Shown here: positions 34,924 through 62,210 of the stretch, piece after piece
How positions within the stretch are numbered: position 1 is the stretch's first letter
Layout: each line of letters starts with the position of its first letter
DNA from: Phaeobacter sp. QD34_24
GTDB lineage: Bacteria; Pseudomonadota; Alphaproteobacteria; Rhodobacterales; Rhodobacteraceae
Length of the DNA stretch: 64,000 nt
Assembly: GCF_028890115.1 (NCBI RefSeq)
Contig: NZ_JARCJD010000001.1
Location: 186,001 to 250,000 of the forward strand
Direction: 5' to 3'
Translations under genes and position numbers: made by a program
The notes under the pieces: model-generated
What the model was told of the DNA's origin: nothing
The model's input: only the letters and a program-made list of their open reading frames with translations
Database searches by the model: none

Positions 34924-36672
34924 CTATCCAAGCATGTCGATCATTCTGGCCCGCATCACAAACTTCTGTGGTTTACCTGTGATGGTCATTGGCAGCTCAT
35001 CCACGATCCGGATGTGCCGCGGTATCTTGAAATGCGCGATCTGGCCCTGCAACACCGCACGCAGCTCCTCTTCGCTCAGATCCATGCCCGGCTTTGCGAT
35101 CGCCCAGGCGCAGACTTCCTCGCCGAACCTCTCGTCGGGGATGCCAAAGACCTGGACATCGCTGACACCGGGGTGTCGCATCAGGTATTCCTCGATCTCG
35201 CGCGGGTAGATGTTTTCGCCGCCCCGGATAATCATGTCCTTGACCCGCCCGACAATGGAGCAGAATCCGTCCTGATCGAACACCGCAAGATCTCCGGTAT
35301 GCATCCATCCATCCACGATGCTCTCGGCGGTTTTCTCCGGATCCTCCCAATAGCCCTTCATGACCGAATAGCCACGGGTGCACAGCTCACCCTGTGTCCC
35401 GACCGGCACGACATGTCCGTCCGCGCCGATGATCTTCACTTCAAGATGCGGGTGAACCCGGCCAACCGTTTCACAGCGTTTGCCGGTGGGATCATCCACG
35501 AAGCTCTGGAAGGACACCGGCGAGGTTTCCGTCATCCCGTAGCAGATGGTGACCTCCTTCATGTTCATCTGTGTATTGACGCGCTGCATGACCTCTACCG
35601 GACAGGGGGCGCCCGCCATGATGCCGGTGCGCAGGTTGGAAAGATCGCGCGGGCTGTCTTCAAGGTTTTCCAGCATCGCCACAAACATGGTCGGCACCCC
35701 GTAAACAGCGGTGCAGCGCTCCTTGGCCAGCACATCAAGCGTCTGGGCCGCATCGAAGCCTTCGCCGGGAAAGACCATGGCCGCCCCCTTGCTGACCGCG
35801 CCCAGCACCCCCATCACCATGCCGAAACAGTGATAGAGCGGCACCGGGATTGCCAACCGGTCCGTCTCGCTCAGGTTGATACGGTCCGTCACAAAGCGGG
35901 CATTGTTGACGATGTTGTAATGAGACAGCGTTGCGCCCTTGGGCATCCCCGTCGTGCCGGAGGTGAACTGGATATTGATGGCGTCATCGGGGTCGAGGGT
36001 CCTGTCGATCTCGGAAATCCGCAGTTGCTGGGCCGGGCCACCAAGTTTCCTGAGCTCGGCAAAGGAATAGGCACCGGGGCCGGGGTGATCATCCATCAGG
36101 ATGACACTGCGCAAATGGCGCAGTCTTGCAGACTGAAGGCGCCCCGGCTCGCATGAGTCCAGTTCCGGGGCCAGTTGCCGGATCATGCCTGCGTAATCGG
36201 AGCTCTTGAAGGACTTGGCCGCGATCACAGCCCTGCAGGCGACCTTGTTCAATGCGTATTCCAGCTCGCCCAGCCGGTACGCCGGGTTGATGTTGACCAG
36301 CACAAGCCCGACGCGTGCGGTGGCAAACTGGGTGAGCACCCATTCGAACCGGTTGGGCGACCAGATCCCGACGCGATCCCCCTTTTCCAGGCCAAGCGCC
36401 AACAACCCGGAGGCCAGCTCGTCCACGGCGCGGTCCAGATCATAATAGCTCAGCCGAAGGTCCTGTTCGGGAAAAATCGCAGCCTCCCTCGGGCCAAATC
36501 GCGACACCGCTTCGCGCAACAGCTGCGGTATGGTGATATAGGCCAATGACGGCTGTAACGGTCCCTGGACATAGGACTGGCCGTCTTGCGGGGCGGTCGT
36601 GCCGACCAAGGTTTCGGTCCTGAAATCCCAATCGGATATGCGCGCCGCCTGGCTTTCACTCAGGATTGACAT
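34924..36672 (-). CDS. AMP-dependent acyl-CoA synthetase
   Basis: 582-residue ANL-superfamily ligase close to the ACSF2 medium-chain group. The P-loop-like motif FTSGTTGMPKGATLSH, the YGMTETSP adenylate segment, the TGDLAVFDQDGF hinge and the C-terminal Lys of ITGKPQKF are all present. It forms acyl-CoA from a carboxylic acid, ATP and CoA. The start has GGGAGGA 6 bases upstream. It is the last gene of the flotillin-amide-transporter operon, 12 bases after the ATPase-amidase stop, so the acid released by that amidase is a plausible substrate. Confidence 0.92.
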   Translation of the reverse strand: MSILSESQAARISDWDFRTETLVGTTAPQDGQSYVQGPLQPSLAYITIPQLLREAVSRFGPREAAIFPEQDLRLSYYDLDRAVDELASGLLALGLEKGDRVGIWSPNRFEWVLTQFATARVGLVLVNINPAYRLGELEYALNKVACRAVIAAKSFKSSDYAGMIRQLAPELDSCEPGRLQSARLRHLRSVILMDDHPGPGAYSFAELRKLGGPAQQLRISEIDRTLDPDDAINIQFTSGTTGMPKGATLSHYNIVNNARFVTDRINLSETDRLAIPVPLYHCFGMVMGVLGAVSKGAAMVFPGEGFDAAQTLDVLAKERCTAVYGVPTMFVAMLENLEDSPRDLSNLRTGIMAGAPCPVEVMQRVNTQMNMKEVTICYGMTETSPVSFQSFVDDPTGKRCETVGRVHPHLEVKIIGADGHVVPVGTQGELCTRGYSVMKGYWEDPEKTAESIVDGWMHTGDLAVFDQDGFCSIVGRVKDMIIRGGENIYPREIEEYLMRHPGVSDVQVFGIPDERFGEEVCAWAIAKPGMDLSEEELRAVLQGQIAHFKIPRHIRIVDELPMTITGKPQKFVMRARMIDMLG

Positions 36673-36684
36673 GTCGATCCTCCC

Positions 36685-39042
36685 TTACATGTTTCGCCAA
36701 TCGCCCGATTGTTCGAATGCATCCGCCGCCTGGTAGATCTTCATCTCGCCATAGTGTGGTCCGACCAGCATCATGCCGATGGGCAGCCCTTCGCTCAGCC
36801 CGCAGGGGATGCTCATGGCAGGCAGGCCGCCGTTGAAGGGCGCGGTGTTGGGAACCATTTCAAAGGCCCGCTGCACATAGAGGCTGAGCGAACAATCGGC
36901 CGGCGGATGGGGTTGCGGCTTGATCGGCAGGGTCGGCATCAGCAGGAGATCGTACCGCTTGAGCGCCGCCATGTAGCGTTCGTTGCACAGCCGCATGATG
37001 TTCTGGGCCTTGCCATAGAAGCGACCCCGGTACTGCCGTTGAAAATGCTCTCCCACGAACATGCAGGCCTTCAGCGAATGGCTCAACTCATCCGCGCGCC
37101 CCTGCCATTGCGCCATGTGATCGGTCATCGAGGGCAGGAACAGCCCCTTGTAGTTGGTGCCGGTGGAATTGCCCCACATCATGCCGTCCTGAAGCCCCTC
37201 TAGCGTGATCGCGGTCCAGGCATCCATGGCCGTGTGATGCTCGGGGATGGACACTTCCTCGACACGCGCACCCAGCTCCCGGAACCGCTCGGCGGCCTGC
37301 ATGACCTTGGTATCCACGTCGAATTCCGAATTCTCGTGGGCAAATCCTTCCTCGAGAATGCCGATGCGCAGCCCTTGCACACCGCGCCCGAGCGCCTCGG
37401 TATAGCTGTAGACGGTGGGCTTGCACTGGCGCGGATCCAGACCATCCGCACCGGCCAGAACCTCCAAGAGCAAGGCATTGTCGGCCACGGTGTTAGTCAC
37501 GGGGCCAAGGTGATCGATGGTCTGTTCGATCGGCATCGCGCCCGTGTATGGCACAAGCCCATGCGTGGGTTTCATCCCGTAGACACCGCAATTCGAAGCC
37601 GGGATGCGGATCGAGCCGCCCTGATCCCCGGCGATGGCCATATCGACCTCTCCGGCGGCCACCAAGGCAGCCGAGCCCCCCGAGGAGCCGCCCGCCATAT
37701 ATCCCCGCTTCCAGGGGTTGTGGATCTGCCCCTTGGCATTTGTATGCGATCCCCCCGACAGGCAGAAGTTTTCACAATGCGCCTTGCCGACAATGACCGC
37801 CCCGGCATCCAACATGCGCGTCACGATGGTGGCGTCGATCTCTGGCGTGTAGCCTTCCATGATGGACGAGCCATTCATCATCGGCACGCCGGCCAGGCAG
37901 ATGGTATCCTTCAGCGCGATGCGTTTGCCGCGCAGCTTACCATCCGGCGCGCCGCGCACTTCGGTTTTGACATACCAGGCGTTCAGAGGATTTTCGGTCT
38001 GGTTCGGGAAATGACCGGGACTGCGCGGGTAGCGCACCTCAGGGAGGTAGTCCGGCATCGCGTCCAAGCGATCATAGGCCTGCATGTAGGGTTCGATGAT
38101 CTCGCGGTATTCTTCCAGATCCTCATCCGAAAGGCTCATCCCGAACCGGCTGGCCATATCGCGCATCTGCGCCAGTGTCGGTCGTTTTATTGTCATGTTC
38201 GTCACCACGCTTGCGGCAGCCGGTTCAATCGCGGGCATTGCCTGGGGTTTCAATTGGATATGTGAGGCGGCGGAGTCGGTCCGGGGGCGGTTGCCGTGAC
38301 CACGGGTTGATCGGGCCGCTCCGAAACCAAGAAACTGATCAACTTTGGCCTGGTCGGAAAGATCCGCCTTGCTCAACTCTCCGGTGATGCGGCCCCGTTC
38401 AAGGACAAGCACCCGGTCCGAAAGGTCTGAAATGAAGTCGAAATTCTGCTCGACCAGCAGGATCGAAAGCCCGCGGTTTTGGCGCAGGGTAAGCAGTGTT
38501 TCGCCCATTTCCTCGATGATCGAGGGCTGGATGCCTTCGGTCGGCTCATCCAACAGCAGGAAATCCGGATCTCCCATCAGGCAGCGGGCCAGCGCCAACA
38601 ATTGCTGCTCCCCACCAGAAAGCGCGCCGCCTTCGCGGTCCATGAGCGGGCGCAGGCGCGGAAAATCCGACAGCACGCTTTCCATGACATCGTGCTCGGA
38701 GGCTCCGGCGTACTCGTGCCAGGCGAAGCGCAGATTGTCGCGCACGGACAACTGCGGGAAGATGCCCCTGCCCTGCGGCACATAGCCCAGACCAAGCCCG
38801 GCTCGCTCGAAGAGAGGCATGCCGGTGATGTCACTCGCGTGAAACCTGATCGTGCCGGACCCGGCGGGCAGGAACCCCATCAAGGTCTTCAACAGCGTGG
38901 TTTTCCCCATGCCATTATGGCCGAGGATCCCGACGACTTCATTTACGGCAACAGCGAATTCGATCCCGTGCAGGATCGGCACCTTTCCGTATCCGCCTGA
39001 GAGGCCTTTGACGGCAAGAATTTCGGGTTCGTCGTCGCGCAT
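36685..39042 (-). CDS. LivF/UrtE-type ABC ATPase fused to an amidase-signature amidase
   Basis: 785 residues in one uninterrupted frame. Residues 1-240 are a branched-chain/urea-type ATPase: Walker A GHNGMGKTT (41-49), signature LSGGEQQ, Walker B LLLDEPTEG, switch His replaced by Gln in LLVEQNFDF as usual for LivF. A linker at about 241-283 is rich in Pro/Ala/Ser. Residues 284-785 are an amidase-signature enzyme with its Ser-cisSer-Lys triad (Lys378 in ALKDTI; Ser453 in GGSSGGS; Ser477 in GGSIRIPAS). The start at 39042 is 1 base after the preceding ATPase stop. An in-frame ATG at 38196 could also release a separate amidase. Confidence 0.93.
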   Translation of the reverse strand: MRDDEPEILAVKGLSGGYGKVPILHGIEFAVAVNEVVGILGHNGMGKTTLLKTLMGFLPAGSGTIRFHASDITGMPLFERAGLGLGYVPQGRGIFPQLSVRDNLRFAWHEYAGASEHDVMESVLSDFPRLRPLMDREGGALSGGEQQLLALARCLMGDPDFLLLDEPTEGIQPSIIEEMGETLLTLRQNRGLSILLVEQNFDFISDLSDRVLVLERGRITGELSKADLSDQAKVDQFLGFGAARSTRGHGNRPRTDSAASHIQLKPQAMPAIEPAAASVVTNMTIKRPTLAQMRDMASRFGMSLSDEDLEEYREIIEPYMQAYDRLDAMPDYLPEVRYPRSPGHFPNQTENPLNAWYVKTEVRGAPDGKLRGKRIALKDTICLAGVPMMNGSSIMEGYTPEIDATIVTRMLDAGAVIVGKAHCENFCLSGGSHTNAKGQIHNPWKRGYMAGGSSGGSAALVAAGEVDMAIAGDQGGSIRIPASNCGVYGMKPTHGLVPYTGAMPIEQTIDHLGPVTNTVADNALLLEVLAGADGLDPRQCKPTVYSYTEALGRGVQGLRIGILEEGFAHENSEFDVDTKVMQAAERFRELGARVEEVSIPEHHTAMDAWTAITLEGLQDGMMWGNSTGTNYKGLFLPSMTDHMAQWQGRADELSHSLKACMFVGEHFQRQYRGRFYGKAQNIMRLCNERYMAALKRYDLLLMPTLPIKPQPHPPADCSLSLYVQRAFEMVPNTAPFNGGLPAMSIPCGLSEGLPIGMMLVGPHYGEMKIYQAADAFEQSGDWRNM

Positions 39043-39043
39043 C

Positions 39044-39760
39044 TCAGGCCTTCTTTCCAAGATAGACGTTGCGCACCATTGGGTCGGACATGACCCGGTC
39101 CACATGATCTTCCATCAACACTTCTCCCTGGTGGAAAACCGTCACCACCTCGGCAATGGAGCGAATAAACTGCATGTCATGCTCGACGATGATGATCGCG
39201 GCGGTCTTGTTCAGTTCGTGAATGATCGCGGTCATGCGCTCCACGTCTTCGGCGCTCATGCCGGCCGCGGGTTCGTCCAGCAACACCAGCCAGGGATCCC
39301 CGACGGCAACCAGACCCAGCTCGACACGCTGGCGTTCGCCATGCGCCAGCCGCCCCAAATCGTCGCGGGCGATCGCCCCCAGGGCCAGGCGTTCGATGAT
39401 CTCCTGCGTCTTGCGGTTGGCCTCCTGTGGCTCATGAAACCGCCGGGCTGCCAGCCAGATGTTTTCAAAGACGCTCAGACTGTCCATGACGTTGGGTGTC
39501 TGGGTCTTGATGCCGACACCCAGGGAGGCAATCTGATGCGGCATCCAGTGCGTGGTCTCGACCCCACGCATGTAGACCTCGCCTTCGGTTGGCGTCTGCA
39601 ACCCCGTCACGCATTTGAAGAAGGTGGATTTGCCCGCCCCATTCGGGCCGATCAGGCAGCGCAGCTCGCGGGCGCGGAGTTTGAAGTCGACGTTATTGGC
39701 CGCGACCACACCGCCAAAGCGCATTGTCAGTCCCTGGGTTTCAAGAACAAGTTCAGCCAT
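39044..39760 (-). CDS. ABC transporter ATP-binding protein, LivG/UrtD type
   Basis: 238 residues from the ATG at 39760, which lies inside the end of the permease gene (8-base overlap). Walker A GPNGAGKST, signature LAHGERQRVELG (a degenerate LSGG as in urea/amide transporters), Walker B WLVLLDEPAAGM and the switch His in IIVEHDM are visible. It powers import together with the ATPase half of the fused downstream protein. Confidence 0.94.
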   Translation of the reverse strand: MAELVLETQGLTMRFGGVVAANNVDFKLRARELRCLIGPNGAGKSTFFKCVTGLQTPTEGEVYMRGVETTHWMPHQIASLGVGIKTQTPNVMDSLSVFENIWLAARRFHEPQEANRKTQEIIERLALGAIARDDLGRLAHGERQRVELGLVAVGDPWLVLLDEPAAGMSAEDVERMTAIIHELNKTAAIIIVEHDMQFIRSIAEVVTVFHQGEVLMEDHVDRVMSDPMVRNVYLGKKA

Positions 39761-40790
39761 TGCGATGCTCCCGGTTTCGCATGCGCCGTTGCTGGTGAAT
39801 GCGCCCCAGGGGTCGGCGGCCAAAGCTCACCTTCCAGAGGTCCGCCAGCGCCGGAACGACGCCTTTGGGCAGGAAGAGCACGAACAGCACCAGGATCAGC
39901 CCAGTGATCAGCGTGTTGTCCACCACGGCCTGCTGCCCCAGAAGGAACTTCAGATAGGCCAGACCGGCGGCTCCCAGAACCGGACCCAGCCGCGTTCCCA
40001 GACCGCCGACGATACACCAGATGATGATCTCGGCCGATTGGCCCAGGGAAAACAGGTTCGGCGTGACAATCTCTGCCCAATTCGCAAACAGCGCGCCGGC
40101 CAACCCGGCGATGGCAGCGCCGGTGGCAAACAGCAGGGTTTTCCGGGCGCGCACGTCATAGCCCATCAGCGACATGCGGGTTTCGTTTTCCCGGATGCCG
40201 ACCGCGATGCGGCCAAAGCTGGATCTCAGCAAGGCCGTCACCAGGAAGAAGACCAGCCCCAACAGAACAGCGCAGACATAGAAATAGCTGTCACCCCAGA
40301 TGTAGGCATCGGGGTCTCCGGGGACGTTCAGGGTCTGGAAACCGGGGATGCCGTTGAACCCGCCCAGCCGCGCGGTTCCGATCACATACTGCGGCCCGGC
40401 GGTGGAGTTGATGAACTTGAACAGGATCAGGGTCACAACCAGGGTGATGACCCCGAGGTAGACATCATTCAGCCGCCCGTAGAACATCATGGCGCCCAGA
40501 AGCGCTGCAAAGAGGCCCGGGACCAGGACCGCCAGGATCATCGGGACCGTGCTTTCGCCCAGGTTGATCGCGGCAATGGCGTAAGTATATGCGCCGAGGC
40601 CAAAAAACGCCGCTTGCCCGAAACAGAGGATACCACCGAAGCCCCAGATCAGGCCAAGGCTCAGGCCCAGCATCCCGTAGACGATCAGAACCGTCAGCGT
40701 GTAGGTGCCGATCAGCAGCGGCATCACCCAGATCAGCACAGCCGTGACCAGGATGATCTTGACGGCGTCTTGTGAGAGGCTTCCCTGCAT
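39753..40790 (-). CDS. ABC transporter permease, LivM/UrtC type
   Basis: 345-residue permease with about 9-10 helices and the LivM-type region GIRENETRMSLMGYDVRARKT that contacts the ATPases. Its ATG overlaps the LivH stop by one base (TGATG). It forms the pore with LivH for an amide, urea or amino-acid-like solute. Confidence 0.94.
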   Translation of the reverse strand: MQGSLSQDAVKIILVTAVLIWVMPLLIGTYTLTVLIVYGMLGLSLGLIWGFGGILCFGQAAFFGLGAYTYAIAAINLGESTVPMILAVLVPGLFAALLGAMMFYGRLNDVYLGVITLVVTLILFKFINSTAGPQYVIGTARLGGFNGIPGFQTLNVPGDPDAYIWGDSYFYVCAVLLGLVFFLVTALLRSSFGRIAVGIRENETRMSLMGYDVRARKTLLFATGAAIAGLAGALFANWAEIVTPNLFSLGQSAEIIIWCIVGGLGTRLGPVLGAAGLAYLKFLLGQQAVVDNTLITGLILVLFVLFLPKGVVPALADLWKVSFGRRPLGRIHQQRRMRNREHRNG

Positions 40791-41656
40791 CAGAGCTTCC
40801 CCTTGAAGAACTTGCCGGTGATGCCCTGCGGCAGAAGACGCAGCAGAACGACAGCCGCAACCAACAAGGCGACTTCACCGATGACCGGCGAGACAGCGAA
40901 GGTGAAAAACTGGTTCACCACGCCGAAGAAACCGGCGCTGGAAAAGAGACCGGCAATCAGCGACGGCCCGCCCGCGATCACCGTGATGAAGGCCTTGGCG
41001 ATATAGGCGCCACCCGATGTCGGCACGAGGCCAACCAGCGGGGCCAGCACGGCCCCCGCCATCCCGGACAGCGCCGAACCGAAAAAGAAGGTCGCCATGT
41101 AGATACGGTCGGGGCTGTAGCCCAGGGCCGCCGCCATGTCGGCCCGCTGCATGGCGCCGCGCGCGATCAACCCCGCGCGTGTTGTCTTCAGGATCAATAG
41201 CATCCCGACCAGCAACAGCACCGCGACCACGATGATGAAGAAATTATAGCCGTTGATCTGATAGTTGCCGATGGCGAACCCGGGGATCGGTGTTGAAATC
41301 CCGGTTGTCGTATTGCCAAAGATCATCGTGGCCAGGCCGATGAAGAACAGGCTCAACCCCCAGGTCGCCAGCATCGTATCGACCAAGCGTCCGTAGAGAT
41401 GCCGGATCACCAGCCGCTCGACCGCGAGCCCGATCAGCCCCACGACGATTGGCGCGATCACCAGCATCGCCAGAAAGATGTTCACACCAAGGTTTACGGC
41501 GGTGATGGTCGCATACCCGCCCATCATCATGAACTCGCCGTGGGCAAGATTGATCACTTTCATCATGCCGAACACGACCGCAAGGCCCGCGCTGACAAGG
41601 ATCAAGGAGGCAACCGCGTAGAGCATTTCGACAAGAATGACGACGGACAAATCCAT
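40790..41656 (-). CDS. ABC transporter permease, LivH/UrtB type
   Basis: 288-residue permease with the family segments MMKVINLAHGEFMMMGGY and the C-terminal FITVIAGGPSLIAGLFSSAGFF. It is the second gene of the transport set, 83 bases after the substrate-binding protein, from which it is separated by a GC-rich hairpin. Confidence 0.94.
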   Translation of the reverse strand: MDLSVVILVEMLYAVASLILVSAGLAVVFGMMKVINLAHGEFMMMGGYATITAVNLGVNIFLAMLVIAPIVVGLIGLAVERLVIRHLYGRLVDTMLATWGLSLFFIGLATMIFGNTTTGISTPIPGFAIGNYQINGYNFFIIVVAVLLLVGMLLILKTTRAGLIARGAMQRADMAAALGYSPDRIYMATFFFGSALSGMAGAVLAPLVGLVPTSGGAYIAKAFITVIAGGPSLIAGLFSSAGFFGVVNQFFTFAVSPVIGEVALLVAAVVLLRLLPQGITGKFFKGKL

Positions 41657-41739: not shown

Positions 41740-42960
41740 TCAGATCTCGATTTCGTACTGCGTGTTGTCGCCCGGATTGGCAGCAAGATCGCAGACAGCC
41801 TGGGTATCGACCGGCTGGCGCTGGGGCAGCGTTTCGATCACCTTCATACCCTGGTTTACGAATTCCATGATATGGACATCCAGAACCGCGTGGTGCGTTT
41901 TGGGATCAACCGTGACCTTGCCGGCCGGACCCTCGATCGACAGGCCGGATTCCAGTGCGGCAATCAACGCGTCACGATCCAGGGACCCCGCCTGGCGCAC
42001 CGCTTCCGCCCAGGTCAGCACGCCCTGATAGTTGGACACGGCGATTTCATGGATCAGGTTGCTATCGCCATAGGCTGCAGCCCAGCGTTCCTTGAAGGCG
42101 GTGTTGGCGGGGGTATCGAGCTCCTGGCTGTAGTTGTAGGCGACCATGATGCCGTTGCCCTCTTCCGGGGTCAGAACTTTATGTTCGTTGCCCACGCCGA
42201 GGGTGGTGGAGGCCAGCGGGATCTTGTCCTTCATGCCCGCCGCCGCCCATTGGCGGAAGAAGCTGAGATGCGCACCACCCACCAGCGGCGCGATCACCAG
42301 ATCGGGGCCAACCGATTGGATCTTGGCGATGGTCGAGCCAAAGTCGCTGACGTCCAGCGGGAAGAAATCGACGCCCACGGTTTCACCGCCATTGTCGGCC
42401 ACGAATTTCTGAATCCAGCGCGCGGTGATCTGCCCGTAGTTATAATCGGCGGCGAGGATGTAGACCTTCTTGCCCGACTTGCCCATGGCATAGGGCACCA
42501 GCGCTTCGACCTGCTGGGCCGGGGTCACACCGTTGATGAAGATGTTGCGGTCACAGACACCGCCCTCGTAAAGGACGTTGTAGAAATAGGGTGTTTTTGT
42601 CTTGCGCATCGTCTGGCGAATGGCCTCGCGAGACGCGGACAGGATGCCGCCATGCACCACATCCACCTTGTCCTGGCGGGTCAATTGCTGGGCATATTGC
42701 GAATAGAGCGCCATATCTGATTGCGTGTCATAGGCGGCGATCTCGACCTGCTTGCCCAGCAGGCCTCCGGCTGCGTTGATTTCATCAACAGCCAGGCGCA
42801 TGGCCATATCCATCGGCTTGCCATAGGCATCGAAGATGCCGGATGTATCGAGGATCGAGCCCAGCTTGATGGTATCGGCGGCAAGGCTGACGCGCGGCAG
42901 CGTAGAGGCACCAGCAAGGGCTGCTGTACCGGCTAAAAAGGTGCGGCGGTTCAATGACAT
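41740..42960 (-). CDS. ABC transporter substrate-binding protein, urea/short-chain amide type
   Basis: 406 residues. A twin-arginine-type signal (NRRTFLAGTAALAG, cleavage near SLAAD) precedes a Periplasmic_binding_5/UrtA-AmiC fold. The ligand-site region FYNVLYEGGVCDRNIFINGVTPAQQ is clearly related to the same region of the AmiC-like protein encoded at 44742-45854. It delivers solute to LivHM. Amide or urea-like substrates are inferred from the family and the amidase fusion. Confidence 0.92.
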   Translation of the reverse strand: MSLNRRTFLAGTAALAGASTLPRVSLAADTIKLGSILDTSGIFDAYGKPMDMAMRLAVDEINAAGGLLGKQVEIAAYDTQSDMALYSQYAQQLTRQDKVDVVHGGILSASREAIRQTMRKTKTPYFYNVLYEGGVCDRNIFINGVTPAQQVEALVPYAMGKSGKKVYILAADYNYGQITARWIQKFVADNGGETVGVDFFPLDVSDFGSTIAKIQSVGPDLVIAPLVGGAHLSFFRQWAAAGMKDKIPLASTTLGVGNEHKVLTPEEGNGIMVAYNYSQELDTPANTAFKERWAAAYGDSNLIHEIAVSNYQGVLTWAEAVRQAGSLDRDALIAALESGLSIEGPAGKVTVDPKTHHAVLDVHIMEFVNQGMKVIETLPQRQPVDTQAVCDLAANPGDNTQYEIEI

Positions 42961-43011: not shown

Positions 43012-44622
43012 TCACTTTTCGGTTTTTGGTTTGTCTTTGATCCGGTTGGCGTAATCAGCGGTGCGCCCGGCCAGATTGGCATCGAAATCAAGCCCGATCT
43101 CCTCGCCCATCTGTTTCATCGCGGGCAGACGGACGGCCATGCCAAGGATCTGCTCCATGGCCGAGCCAAAGGCGCCATCAACCCCTTCACCCGTGCCAGC
43201 GCCACCTCCGACGCCTGAAATCTGGTTGATCCGGATCGAGTCGATCTTTTCGACCGGCTTCATCATCTGCGTCATGATTTCAGGCAGCCGGTCCAGCTTG
43301 CGCTCTTCCAGGCGCATCCGGATGACAGCCTCACCCAGCGTGTTTTCAGCCTGGTTCAGCGCAACGCGGCCTGCGGCCTCTGCCTCCATCCGGGCGCGTT
43401 CCACTTCGCTGGCCTTGGTTTTCACGGCTGCATCGGCCTTGGCCTTTTCCAGAAGCGTCTCGACATCGCGCCGGACCTTGGCGCCCTCCAATTCCAGCTC
43501 CTTTTCCTGGTTCAGGCGGGCGATCTCACGTTGCCGTTCGGCAATGGCACGTTCTTTCTGGGCCTGCACGCTTTCGGCGGCTAGGATGACCTTGGCCTTG
43601 GCGGTTTCTTCCTCGGCGCGCGCCTCGGCTTCCTGGGCGCGTTTCCTCGCGATCAGGATATCATTCTCGATCTTCTCTTCTTCGAGCGTCCGGATGGCTG
43701 TCATCTCGGCTTTGCGCAGGGCCTCGTCGGTTTCTACCTGCGTTGCCTTCATGCGTTTTTCGTTCTCGATGCGCGTGGTTTCGCTGGCGAGCCTGGCTTC
43801 ATCGCGCGCCCTGGCCTCGCGGGATTTCGCATCCGCTTCGAGTTTCGCGAGATGCTCCTGCTGTGCGATTTCTGCCTCGCGCTCGGCGCGCTGCAGTTCC
43901 AGCTGCCGCTGATGCTGCGCCAGGTGGCTTTCGCGCACCGCGACCTCGGCTTCTGTTTCGATGCGGATACGCTCCTTGCGCTGCTCGGCGACCAATTCCG
44001 CCAGTTGCCGCATGCCCTGCGCGTTGAAGGCATTGTTCTCGTTCCACTGGCCAAGATCGCTCTGATCCACTGCAATCAGCGACGCCGACACCAGCGTGAG
44101 ACCCAGTTTCTGAGCCTGCGCTTCGATGGCCTCGGCCACATCGGCGGAGAAGCCGGAGCGGTCCAGGTGAATCTCTTCCAAGGTGCGAATGGCCGCTGCA
44201 CGCTGGATGGCATCCACAAGCGAACCGGCAAAAACATCCCGGACCGTTTCGCCGCCTCGGGCGATGCGTGCGCCCAACGCCTGCGCCGCCGTTGCAATGC
44301 CTTCCTCTGTCGGGGCAACGCGCAGCTCGAACTCGAACTGCACATCAGCGCGCATCTTGTCCCGTGTCAGCACCGCATCGCGCCCTACGCGGCTGATGCT
44401 GAAACTCAGCGCCCCCATGGAGACTTTCTGAACCTGATGCAGGATTGGCAGAGACAGGCAGCCCCCGTCGGTGATGATCCGGCGGCGCCCGAAACCGGTG
44501 CGCACCAGCGCAGTGTCCAGGGTCGCCTTTGCGTAGTATCTTTGCAGAAACCAGATCGCGATCAGCGCAACAACAACCAGCAGAACCAGCAGGATAACCC
44601 AAGCCAAGGCATTTCTCCCCAT
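43012..44622 (-). CDS. Flotillin/SPFH-domain membrane protein
   Basis: 536 residues from the ATG at 44622; an in-frame ATG at 44658 would add 12 residues. A single N-terminal transmembrane helix (ALAWVILLVLLVVVALIAIWF) precedes an SPFH domain (about 30-200) and a very long charged coiled coil (about 200-415, many EAE/ERE repeats), then a Gly-rich tail. Flotillins scaffold membrane microdomains and assemble partner complexes. It is the first gene of the operon that continues through the ABC transporter (51-base gap). Confidence 0.9.
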   Translation of the reverse strand: MGRNALAWVILLVLLVVVALIAIWFLQRYYAKATLDTALVRTGFGRRRIITDGGCLSLPILHQVQKVSMGALSFSISRVGRDAVLTRDKMRADVQFEFELRVAPTEEGIATAAQALGARIARGGETVRDVFAGSLVDAIQRAAAIRTLEEIHLDRSGFSADVAEAIEAQAQKLGLTLVSASLIAVDQSDLGQWNENNAFNAQGMRQLAELVAEQRKERIRIETEAEVAVRESHLAQHQRQLELQRAEREAEIAQQEHLAKLEADAKSREARARDEARLASETTRIENEKRMKATQVETDEALRKAEMTAIRTLEEEKIENDILIARKRAQEAEARAEEETAKAKVILAAESVQAQKERAIAERQREIARLNQEKELELEGAKVRRDVETLLEKAKADAAVKTKASEVERARMEAEAAGRVALNQAENTLGEAVIRMRLEERKLDRLPEIMTQMMKPVEKIDSIRINQISGVGGGAGTGEGVDGAFGSAMEQILGMAVRLPAMKQMGEEIGLDFDANLAGRTADYANRIKDKPKTEK

Positions 44623-44678
44623 TTGACCGATCGTCAGGCCCGCTGGCCCGCAATCCATTCGTTGGTCAAAGCGTGGGA

Positions 44679-44741: not shown

Positions 44742-45854
44742 TTAAATCTCTTTTATAACCTCAAACCGCAGGCCATCCGCGCGTGCAAGATAGATAGGCG
44801 CCCGGTCGCTTGCGTTGGATGACAGCAGTTTCCGGCCACTGCGGTACACCACAGGCAGGGCATCCGACACCGTATGATCGCGCCAGATCTTGGCATGTCC
44901 TTCCATCAGACCGGCCAGGAAATGCACCCCTTCGTATGTGGACTGTCCCAAGGCATTCAACACCGGTGCCTGGTCCCCGTGCACGCGGTAGTATTTCTCC
45001 TTGAAGGCCTGGTTGGCCTCTGTCGGCAGGGTGCCAAAGTAGGACGACGCGGCGAACAACCGCTTGCTGTTCTTTGCCCCGCATCCCAACAGGCCATTTT
45101 CTTCGATGGCACAGGACAGGCGCACCATTCGGTCGTGCAGTTTTGCATTGCCAAAGGCCCGGTTGAAGGCAACGGCGTCCTGCCCCACCAGAGAGATAAG
45201 CACCGCTTCGGCACCGGAGTTCGAGATCTCCTCGACAAACCGGCTCATGCTGGTCAGGCCAAAGGGCAGGTATTTCTCATAGGCCAAGCCCACTGACATC
45301 TCCTGCAGCTTGGTCTTGGCATAGTTGTGCGAGGTCCGGGGCCAGACATAATCGTTGCCGATCAAAGCCCAGCTGCGCGGTCGATAGGCGTTTTGGATAT
45401 ATTCGATCGACGGGCCGAGCTGTTCTTCGGGTGTTTCACCGATCGCGAACAACCCCTCTGTCCGCTCGCCCCCCTCATAGAGCGGCGTATAGATATAGGG
45501 GATGCGTTGACGGACAACCTTGCTGAGCCGTTGGCGAATGGCGCTGATATGCATGCCGACGATGGCATCGATCGAATTGGTCTCGATCAGGTCGTTCACC
45601 GTCTCCTCGATCGAAATGCTCGCCTCCATGGCGGCATCTATCATGATCAGCTGCACCTTGCGGCCATCAATGCCATTTGCCCGGTTCAGCTCTTCGACCG
45701 CCACTTGCGCACTTGAGATGCAGGAGGGCGCCCATAGACCCGCAGCCCCGCATAGGGGAATGAGAAGGGCAACGCGAAAGATCCCCTTGCCGCGCAAGAT
45801 CGGATCATCGCGCAGCTCCTCAAGTTCGGTTGGAACACGTGGTAAGGTCGTCAA
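44742..45854 (-). CDS. AmiC-like amide receptor without signal peptide
   Basis: About 370 residues of a type I periplasmic-binding fold resembling AmiC, the cytoplasmic amide sensor of the Pseudomonas amidase operon (VAVEELNRANGIDGR, YIYTPLYEGGE, LIGNDYVWPRTSHNYAK). No signal peptide is visible, so I infer a cytosolic sensor. No in-frame ATG is usable. A TTG at 45854 has GGGAAGGG 10 bases upstream and is my choice. The longer frame from a TTG at 45917 would start inside the operator repeat. No AmiR-type antiterminator is nearby; a MarR gene is divergent instead. Confidence 0.82.
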   Translation of the reverse strand: MTTLPRVPTELEELRDDPILRGKGIFRVALLIPLCGAAGLWAPSCISSAQVAVEELNRANGIDGRKVQLIMIDAAMEASISIEETVNDLIETNSIDAIVGMHISAIRQRLSKVVRQRIPYIYTPLYEGGERTEGLFAIGETPEEQLGPSIEYIQNAYRPRSWALIGNDYVWPRTSHNYAKTKLQEMSVGLAYEKYLPFGLTSMSRFVEEISNSGAEAVLISLVGQDAVAFNRAFGNAKLHDRMVRLSCAIEENGLLGCGAKNSKRLFAASSYFGTLPTEANQAFKEKYYRVHGDQAPVLNALGQSTYEGVHFLAGLMEGHAKIWRDHTVSDALPVVYRSGRKLLSSNASDRAPIYLARADGLRFEVIKEI

Positions 45855-45902
45855 AGTCGTTCGGCCCTTCCCAGCCGGATCGGGAACCGCTACATACCAA
45901 TT

Positions 45903-45922
45903 GATTTTATTTTCCAAGTCAA
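45903..45922 (-). promoter_or_regulatory. Operator-like site between the AmiC-like gene and marR
   Basis: On the minus strand it reads TTGACTTGGAAAATAAAATC, one base different from the site upstream of the flotillin operon. It lies 33 bases before the marR ATG and about 50 upstream of the receptor start, so one bound regulator could control both directions. Confidence 0.68.
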
Positions 45923-45954
45923 ATAAATTCCAAACGTTACAAGCAGGTGCCCCG

Positions 45955-46380
45955 ATGGAAACGAGTCAAAACCCAATCCAGGACTATCTGTCTTATGCTC
46001 TGGCCGCAGCCCATCGAAAGGTGGCCGCGTCGTTGAACTCGCGCCTGAAGCAACACGGCATTCAGATCGAAGCATGGCGGATACTTGAAACCTTGGAAGC
46101 GGGCCAGCGGCTGACCATGGGGCAGCTTGCCGAGGTGGTGCTGATGAACCCACCGACCCTGACCAAGCTGGTGGACCGGATGGTTTCGGACGGCCTGGTA
46201 CACCGGCAAGTGGCACAGGCTGACCATCGCCAGATCAATGTCCTGCCTACGGCCCTTGGCAAGAAGCGGATGCTTCAGATCCGGCAGGAAGTGAAAGAGC
46301 AAGATGCCGAATTCCAGTCCTTGCTCGGCAAGGACGAGGCCGACAAGCTGATTGAACTGCTGCGCGGCGTCAGTCAGTAG
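45955..46380 (+). CDS. MarR-family transcriptional regulator
   Basis: 141 residues (start METSQNPIQDYL) with a winged helix-turn-helix: TMGQLAEVVLMNPPTLTKLVDRM recognition region followed by the wing VAQADHRQINVLPTALGKKR. MarR dimers bind palindromes and are released by small ligands. It is divergent from the AmiC-like gene, and both nearby operator-like repeats make it the likely local regulator of the amide system. Confidence 0.9.
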   Translation: METSQNPIQDYLSYALAAAHRKVAASLNSRLKQHGIQIEAWRILETLEAGQRLTMGQLAEVVLMNPPTLTKLVDRMVSDGLVHRQVAQADHRQINVLPTALGKKRMLQIRQEVKEQDAEFQSLLGKDEADKLIELLRGVSQ

Positions 46381-61732: not shown

Positions 61733-61844
61733 CACCGGCCCCTTGCGTCTCCCCCTTGATCCCGCCCTTCTGATCAAGAAACCGGCCTCCGGAAAACCTG
61801 TGCCCGGGCTACGGTTGCCCCTTTTATTCCGCCCCGCCTGATCC

Positions 61845-61850
61845 TATATT
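61845..61850 (+). promoter_or_regulatory. Candidate -10 box of the tmRNA promoter
   Basis: TATATT with a weak T-rich -35-like segment 17 bases upstream. It would start transcription near 61857, just before the acceptor piece of the tmRNA. Confidence 0.45.
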
Positions 61851-61865
61851 CGTTCTGTCTCCTCG

Positions 61866-62210
61866 TGGGACTATGGACATAAACGCGCTCGTAATAAGCG
61901 GATCGGACCCGGGGGCGGTACCCGGCGGCTCCACCATAAACCTTCTGGCAGTCTCCTTCGTTTGGGGAGCGCTTTCAGAACCGGGGGGCCGAAATAGGAT
62001 CGACGAACGTCTAAAGGGGTTAGCTTTGTCTCGGCTGTCTGCCACCGTTACCGGCGAAAACAGTACAATTGCAAACGACAATCGTGCTCCGGTTGCTCTG
62101 GCTGCGTAAGCAGTTCGAGTCGAACCGACTTTAAGTCCTTATGCCTAGCCGCGTAAGGCGGGGTTCGCAGGTACCTGGCAACAGAAACCTGCACTTTACC
62201 TCTTCCGTGA
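61866..62210 (+). ncRNA. ssrA: Circularly permuted two-piece tmRNA
   Basis: Acceptor piece first: T-arm stem CCGGG/CCCGG (61909-61913, 61921-61925), acceptor strand CGGCTCC and encoded ACCA ending at 61936. A spacer is then removed, and the coding piece begins at GGGGCCG (61985), which pairs perfectly with CGGCTCC. The tag frame is at 62071-62109: ANDNRAPVALAA and stop. Hairpins after the tag belong to the pseudoknot region. It rescues stalled ribosomes. The outer ends are approximate. A plus-strand open frame at 61873-62109 is an artefact of this RNA. Confidence 0.93.

Follow-up and report, generated by a model that had tools for sequence, protein, structure and literature searches.

A conserved fusion of a UrtE-like importer ATPase to an amidase, with a probable second start for the enzyme, in a putative amide uptake operon of Phaeobacter

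An importer and the enzyme that processes its cargo are as a rule two different proteins, and whether bacteria link uptake to the first step of metabolism is difficult to test. A locus in Phaeobacter sp. QD34_24 (NZ_JARCJD010000001.1, positions 186,001 to 250,000; these 64,000 nucleotides are the window to which all coordinates refer) raises the question of what becomes of that separation when both functions are encoded in one gene. Reading on the minus strand from an ATG at 39042 to a stop ending at 36685, a single frame joins an ABC transporter ATPase to an amidase. The first-pass annotation had described one frame of 785 codons with these two domains and about 43 residues between them, and the Pfam and NCBIfam matches and the alignment agree with it:

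36685..39042, minus strand: fusion of a UrtE-type ABC ATPase and a PRK07235-type amidase, 785 codons (785 aa) in one frame
38323..39042, minus strand: ABC ATPase half, residues 1-240 (Pfam, NCBIfam, alignment, predicted model)
38197..38322, minus strand: predicted disordered linker rich in Ala, Pro, Ser and Thr, residues 241-282, or 43 residues when counted from 240 (alignment, disorder prediction)
38202..38206, minus strand: internal Shine-Dalgarno element GGTGA, 5 nt upstream of the internal ATG (sequence, conservation)
36685..38196, minus strand: amidase half of the fusion and frame of a predicted free amidase from the internal ATG, 503 aa (start of the PRK07235 match, start-codon conservation)

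By Pfam, ABC_tran matches residues 24-168 of the fusion (100.8 bits) and Amidase residues 361-767 (300 bits). The NCBIfam amidase model PRK07235 aligns from position 1 to 505 of its 506 with residues 283-784, beginning exactly at the internal Met283 and scoring 760 bits against a curated cut-off of 545, so by sequence this half is a complete, full-length PRK07235 amidase, predicted to hydrolyse amides. Its Ser-cisSer-Lys triad lines up with that of the nearest solved relative, the amidase of Rhodococcus sp. N-771 (PDB ID: 3A1K), to which it aligns over nearly its whole length. The ATPase half carries Walker A, the signature LSGGEQQ and Walker B, with VEQN in place of the switch histidine. All three motifs, as well as Lys378, Ser453 and Ser477 (96, 171 and 195 in amidase numbering), are invariant in 27 aligned sequences, as expected from the earlier claim that both halves keep their catalytic motifs. 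The name LivF that had been given to the ATPase half does not hold, though its assignment to the ABC ATPases does: it scores 254.3 bits against the UrtE model TIGR03410 and 141.7 bits against the LivF model NF008626, below the equivalog cut-offs of both (285.8 and 441). We thus reject both LivF and a true urea transporter, and judging from these scores UrtE-like is the better name, short of a UrtE equivalog. Public annotation calls the fused product 'amidase' alone, which hides the ATPase half. In a predicted structure the ATPase half is good (pLDDT mostly above 80), the linker is disordered over residues 240-282, and the amidase half is poor, probably owing to a shallow alignment.

Across 92 fused loci the linkers range from 39 to 92 residues in 32 different lengths, are rich in Ala, Pro, Thr, Ser and Gly, and contain no stop. 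Here the linker opens with a conserved GAARSTRG; the conserved stretch as a whole, FLGFGAARxTRG, directly follows the ATPase domain (residues 237-248, about 38299-38334 on the minus strand). UrtE proteins encoded separately from the amidase end at FLGF, without the GAARxTRG extension of the fused proteins. The first-pass annotation had taken the fusion to imply channelling of the imported solute; a linker so long and, by prediction, disordered would speak for loose tethering, with proximity and metabolic trapping, more than for a channel that is sealed.

Two complete domains in one frame are a common pattern of artefacts, and one might ask whether an assembly error or a decayed read-through has joined two genes. 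No result among our analyses of this locus supports such an origin, which we regard as vanishingly improbable. The two halves share one frame in each of the 80 homologues that a collection of 84,980 species genomes returned, and also in complete plasmids, whose annotation treats the frame as one CDS; this independent recurrence rules against an assembly error, and a frame kept across linkers of such varied length rules against a recent or decaying read-through, a possibility that the first-pass annotation had likewise discounted. It had also made its reading depend on homologues not always being two genes, and fused homologues proved widespread, the split ones belonging to neighbouring lineages. 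Overall the fused frame is seen in 118 related loci records (some of which are duplicates of one place), in Rhodobacterales, Rhizobiales, Sneathiella and others, and in 14 of 391 genomes drawn from the order. The family is widespread among marine and soil bacteria, and these comparisons support the view that the importer ATPase and the amidase are truly fused and that selection has kept them so.

Does the gene make one product or two? The possible second start noted earlier at 38196 is correctly placed, and comparison of the loci supports it strongly. A start codon occupies this position in 91 of the 92 fused loci (ATG in 90; one has ATC), and it is kept although the linker just upstream is nearly free to vary. 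Over 55 non-redundant loci the mean Shine-Dalgarno energy is -6.9 kcal/mol, with a sharp maximum at initiation-type spacing. The 1748 other ATGs in frame give -3.2, and the true starts of well-sampled neighbouring genes lie between -4.5 and -9.3. Not one of 300 synonymous shuffles matched this strength, and no comparable excess was found at the seven other offsets tested in the same way. Among single bases, those at -10, -9, -7 and -6 are conspicuous, and at codon -4 the third base is G in 49 of 55 loci while the first two bases take 12 forms. The element itself (GGTGA, GGAGG or GAGG) persists across loci with very different encoded peptides, and is weak in about one locus in six. Local mRNA folding is weaker than synonymous re-codings would lead one to expect (-5.5 versus -9.0 kcal/mol), and only at this site. 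With a conserved start codon and a conserved ribosome-binding site lying within the frame, the ATG at 38196 is very nearly certain to be a genuine start. Since codon choice maintains the element even as the peptide drifts, selection on initiation is the best explanation, and under such selection the gene should make both the fused protein and a free amidase.

The fusion belongs to a minus-strand operon in the order AmiC-like protein, flotillin, UrtA, UrtB, UrtC, UrtD, ATPase-amidase fusion and acyl-CoA ligase:

45940..46380, plus strand: MarR-family regulator, divergent at the operon head, start approximate
44742..45917, minus strand: AmiC-like binding protein (Pfam, NCBIfam)
43012..44658, minus strand: flotillin with SPFH and Flot domains (Pfam)
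41740..42960, minus strand: UrtA/AmiC-type substrate-binding protein with a signal sequence (Pfam, NCBIfam)
40790..41656, minus strand: UrtB-type permease (Pfam, NCBIfam)
39753..40790, minus strand: UrtC-type permease (Pfam, NCBIfam)
39044..39766, minus strand: UrtD-type ABC ATPase, the partner nucleotide-binding domain (Pfam, NCBIfam)
34924..36672, minus strand: AMP-binding acyl-CoA ligase, directly downstream of the fusion (Pfam, NCBIfam)

A single nucleotide separates the UrtD stop from the ATG of the fusion. The UrtABCD subunits all score under the urea-transporter equivalog cut-offs (UrtA, for example, 244 against 492.75), and the transporter reaches no cut-off for urea or for branched-chain amino acids. 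The flotillin matches PF15975 (98.9 bits) and PF01145 (32.1 bits), both over cut-off. The AmiC-like gene, found at the same operon position in nearly all fused operons, possibly encodes a cytoplasmic amide sensor; it adjoins the MarR gene, which is likewise divergent at this point in many homologous operons, and an ANTAR regulator is absent. An Rfam scan of the operon gave no matches. Elsewhere in the window, ARAGORN places a tmRNA at 61844-62200 on the plus strand (asterisk flag; tag ANDNRAPVALAA), probably of the permuted two-piece type of Alphaproteobacteria.

About 27 sister operons have urtE and the amidase as separate genes, in most cases 3 to 372 nt apart. These split alphaproteobacterial UrtABCDE-amidase operons (for example in Tistrella, Aureimonas, Shinella and Paracoccus plasmids) share gene order and homologous parts with the fused ones, the amidase gene adjoining urtE and an AmiC-like protein often being present, but flotillin and AMP-ligase are absent from the stretch examined, and in some an ANTAR (AmiR-like) regulator is present in their stead. 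In Paracoccus and Thioclava, split operons have both the AmiC-like protein and ANTAR. Some split relatives have a nitrile hydratase gene beside them. In the Phaeobacter genome itself a nitrile hydratase alpha subunit is encoded away from the operon (L210; contig C12:29696-30238), and this enzyme could be a source of amide.

The fused proteins fall into a single group in the amidase tree, adjoining the split operons, and a careful version favours fusion from the split state with modest support (80/52, 82% of bootstrap trees); the tree of the ABC half gives a single fused/split division, its outgroups being too distant and long-branched to set the direction. As urtE and the amidase are separate neighbours in the sister operons, the simplest history would be that two adjacent genes fused once, long ago. 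Counting loci records with enough flank, some of which represent the same place twice, flotillin is present upstream in all 89 fused records and in none of 27 split operons, and the ligase downstream in 113 of 115 fused records (the two exceptions being one place) and again in none of 27. Given a single origin of the fused form, this association amounts to one co-gain that was retained, rather than to repeated evidence.

The split operons also bear on other ways of reading the gene. They have a ribosome-binding site at the point equivalent to the internal one, so the element predates the fusion, and in the fused gene it sits exactly at the domain boundary; one could thus suppose that the fusion is the sole product and that the element is left over from the time when the amidase had its own gene, or that it makes ribosomes pause and so helps the ATPase to fold ahead of amidase synthesis. 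We consider this rather unlikely. The surrounding linker is saturated with change, yet the Shine-Dalgarno bases persist where the peptide reads XVT, TEAR, LREAY or IQEAIY, and pausing would need neither a start codon at the correct spacing, as is seen in 91 of 92 loci, nor the lowered mRNA structure at the start. Conversely, the working products might be the importer and the free amidase, with the joined frames a tolerated by-product of lost termination that has no tethering role. Operons that have these genes split evidently function unfused, and the internal start would maintain a supply of free amidase, but the frame has been kept across at least 32 linker lengths with no stop, and the GAARxTRG that follows the ATPase is conserved in fused proteins and missing from split UrtE C-termini; incidental joining is accordingly an unlikely account.

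A further alternative grants the tether a purpose other than trapping the solute. Accessory C-terminal domains regulate the ATPases of ABC importers such as MalK or MetN, and the amidase, occupying the same C-terminal position, could act as a gate through which bound product or substrate regulates the ATPase. Catalytic residues complete in every aligned homologue would be needless for pure regulation, however, and the long, disordered linker also speaks against a gate, which we find distinctly improbable.

The reading that we prefer, at a probability of roughly 60%, is an amide importer with a tethered amidase, in which hydrolysis traps the imported solute, a free amidase is made as well, and flotillin clusters the complexes. 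UrtABCD and the UrtE-amidase would form an amide-type ABC importer that bears a hydrolase of its own at the cytoplasmic side of the membrane. Because UrtE is one of two nucleotide-binding domains, each importer would carry one flexibly tethered amidase, near the exit. Imported amide would be converted to acid and ammonia on arrival, stopping back-leak of a membrane-permeable amide, and the acid would then be activated by the downstream acyl-CoA ligase. That amides are the substrates is suggested by the amidase, the AmiC-like proteins, the nitrile hydratase near split relatives and the amide/urea importers of this type that are already known (PMC10781810); the ligase further implies an acid worth activating with CoA, and hence an amide probably larger than formamide or acetamide. 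From the conserved internal ribosome-binding site the same mRNA would also yield the free 503-aa amidase. The amidase of Rhodococcus N-771 reportedly dimerises via its N-terminal domain. In that case the single copy tethered to each importer would require a partner, and the free product could be that partner; probably the two pair, or else the free form adds bulk activity. The flotillin, conserved alongside, probably gathers the complexes into membrane clusters.

More tentatively, and we would sooner doubt than assert it, these parts might make up a self-assembling import-and-hydrolyse unit: a motor-hydrolase and a free, dimer-completing hydrolase, gathered by flotillin and passing their product to the acyl-CoA ligase. 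Were this true, the operon would encode a membrane-bound amide-assimilation unit. With the covalent joining, relatives that have separate genes and a second start that a handful of synonymous substitutions could switch off, direct tests of coupling, trapping and subunit pairing become feasible, and the fused system is a candidate for a nutrient importer with its own flotillin.

Several known systems resemble parts of this arrangement. The function of a nutrient ABC permease depends on flotillin in the IsdF-FloA pair of Staphylococcus aureus (PMC10147376), where the dependence is experimental; here the corresponding link is the gene association alone. For the internal start, the proven precedent is SctQ/YscQ of type III secretion, in which one gene and frame give a full-length protein and, by initiation within the frame, a C-terminal product, the short form assembling with the full-length one and being needed for assembly (PMC4295842). 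SctQ/YscQ is unrelated to the fusion, and its short product differs from the one predicted here, which would be a complete enzyme. The Rhodococcus sp. N-771 amidase (PDB ID: 3A1K) shares the Lys-Ser-Ser triad and the N-terminal domain but is stand-alone, whereas here the amidase is preceded by a transporter ATPase. A further such system is FmdCABDEF of Methylophilus methylotrophus, which takes up short-chain amides and urea (PMC10781810): like the fused operon it clusters binding-protein-dependent amide/urea uptake with an amide hydrolase, though its hydrolase is a separate formamidase with no fusion described, and the likeness drawn here is one of published description. In the open-access literature we found no published description of a UrtE-amidase fusion with an internal start, and our searches of it on FmdDEF with amidase, on Roseobacter amide transport and on transporter-enzyme fusions turned up no such arrangement either. 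The transporter-hydrolase operon is thus of a known kind, and what appears new is the conserved fusion, its probable dual product and the company of a flotillin.
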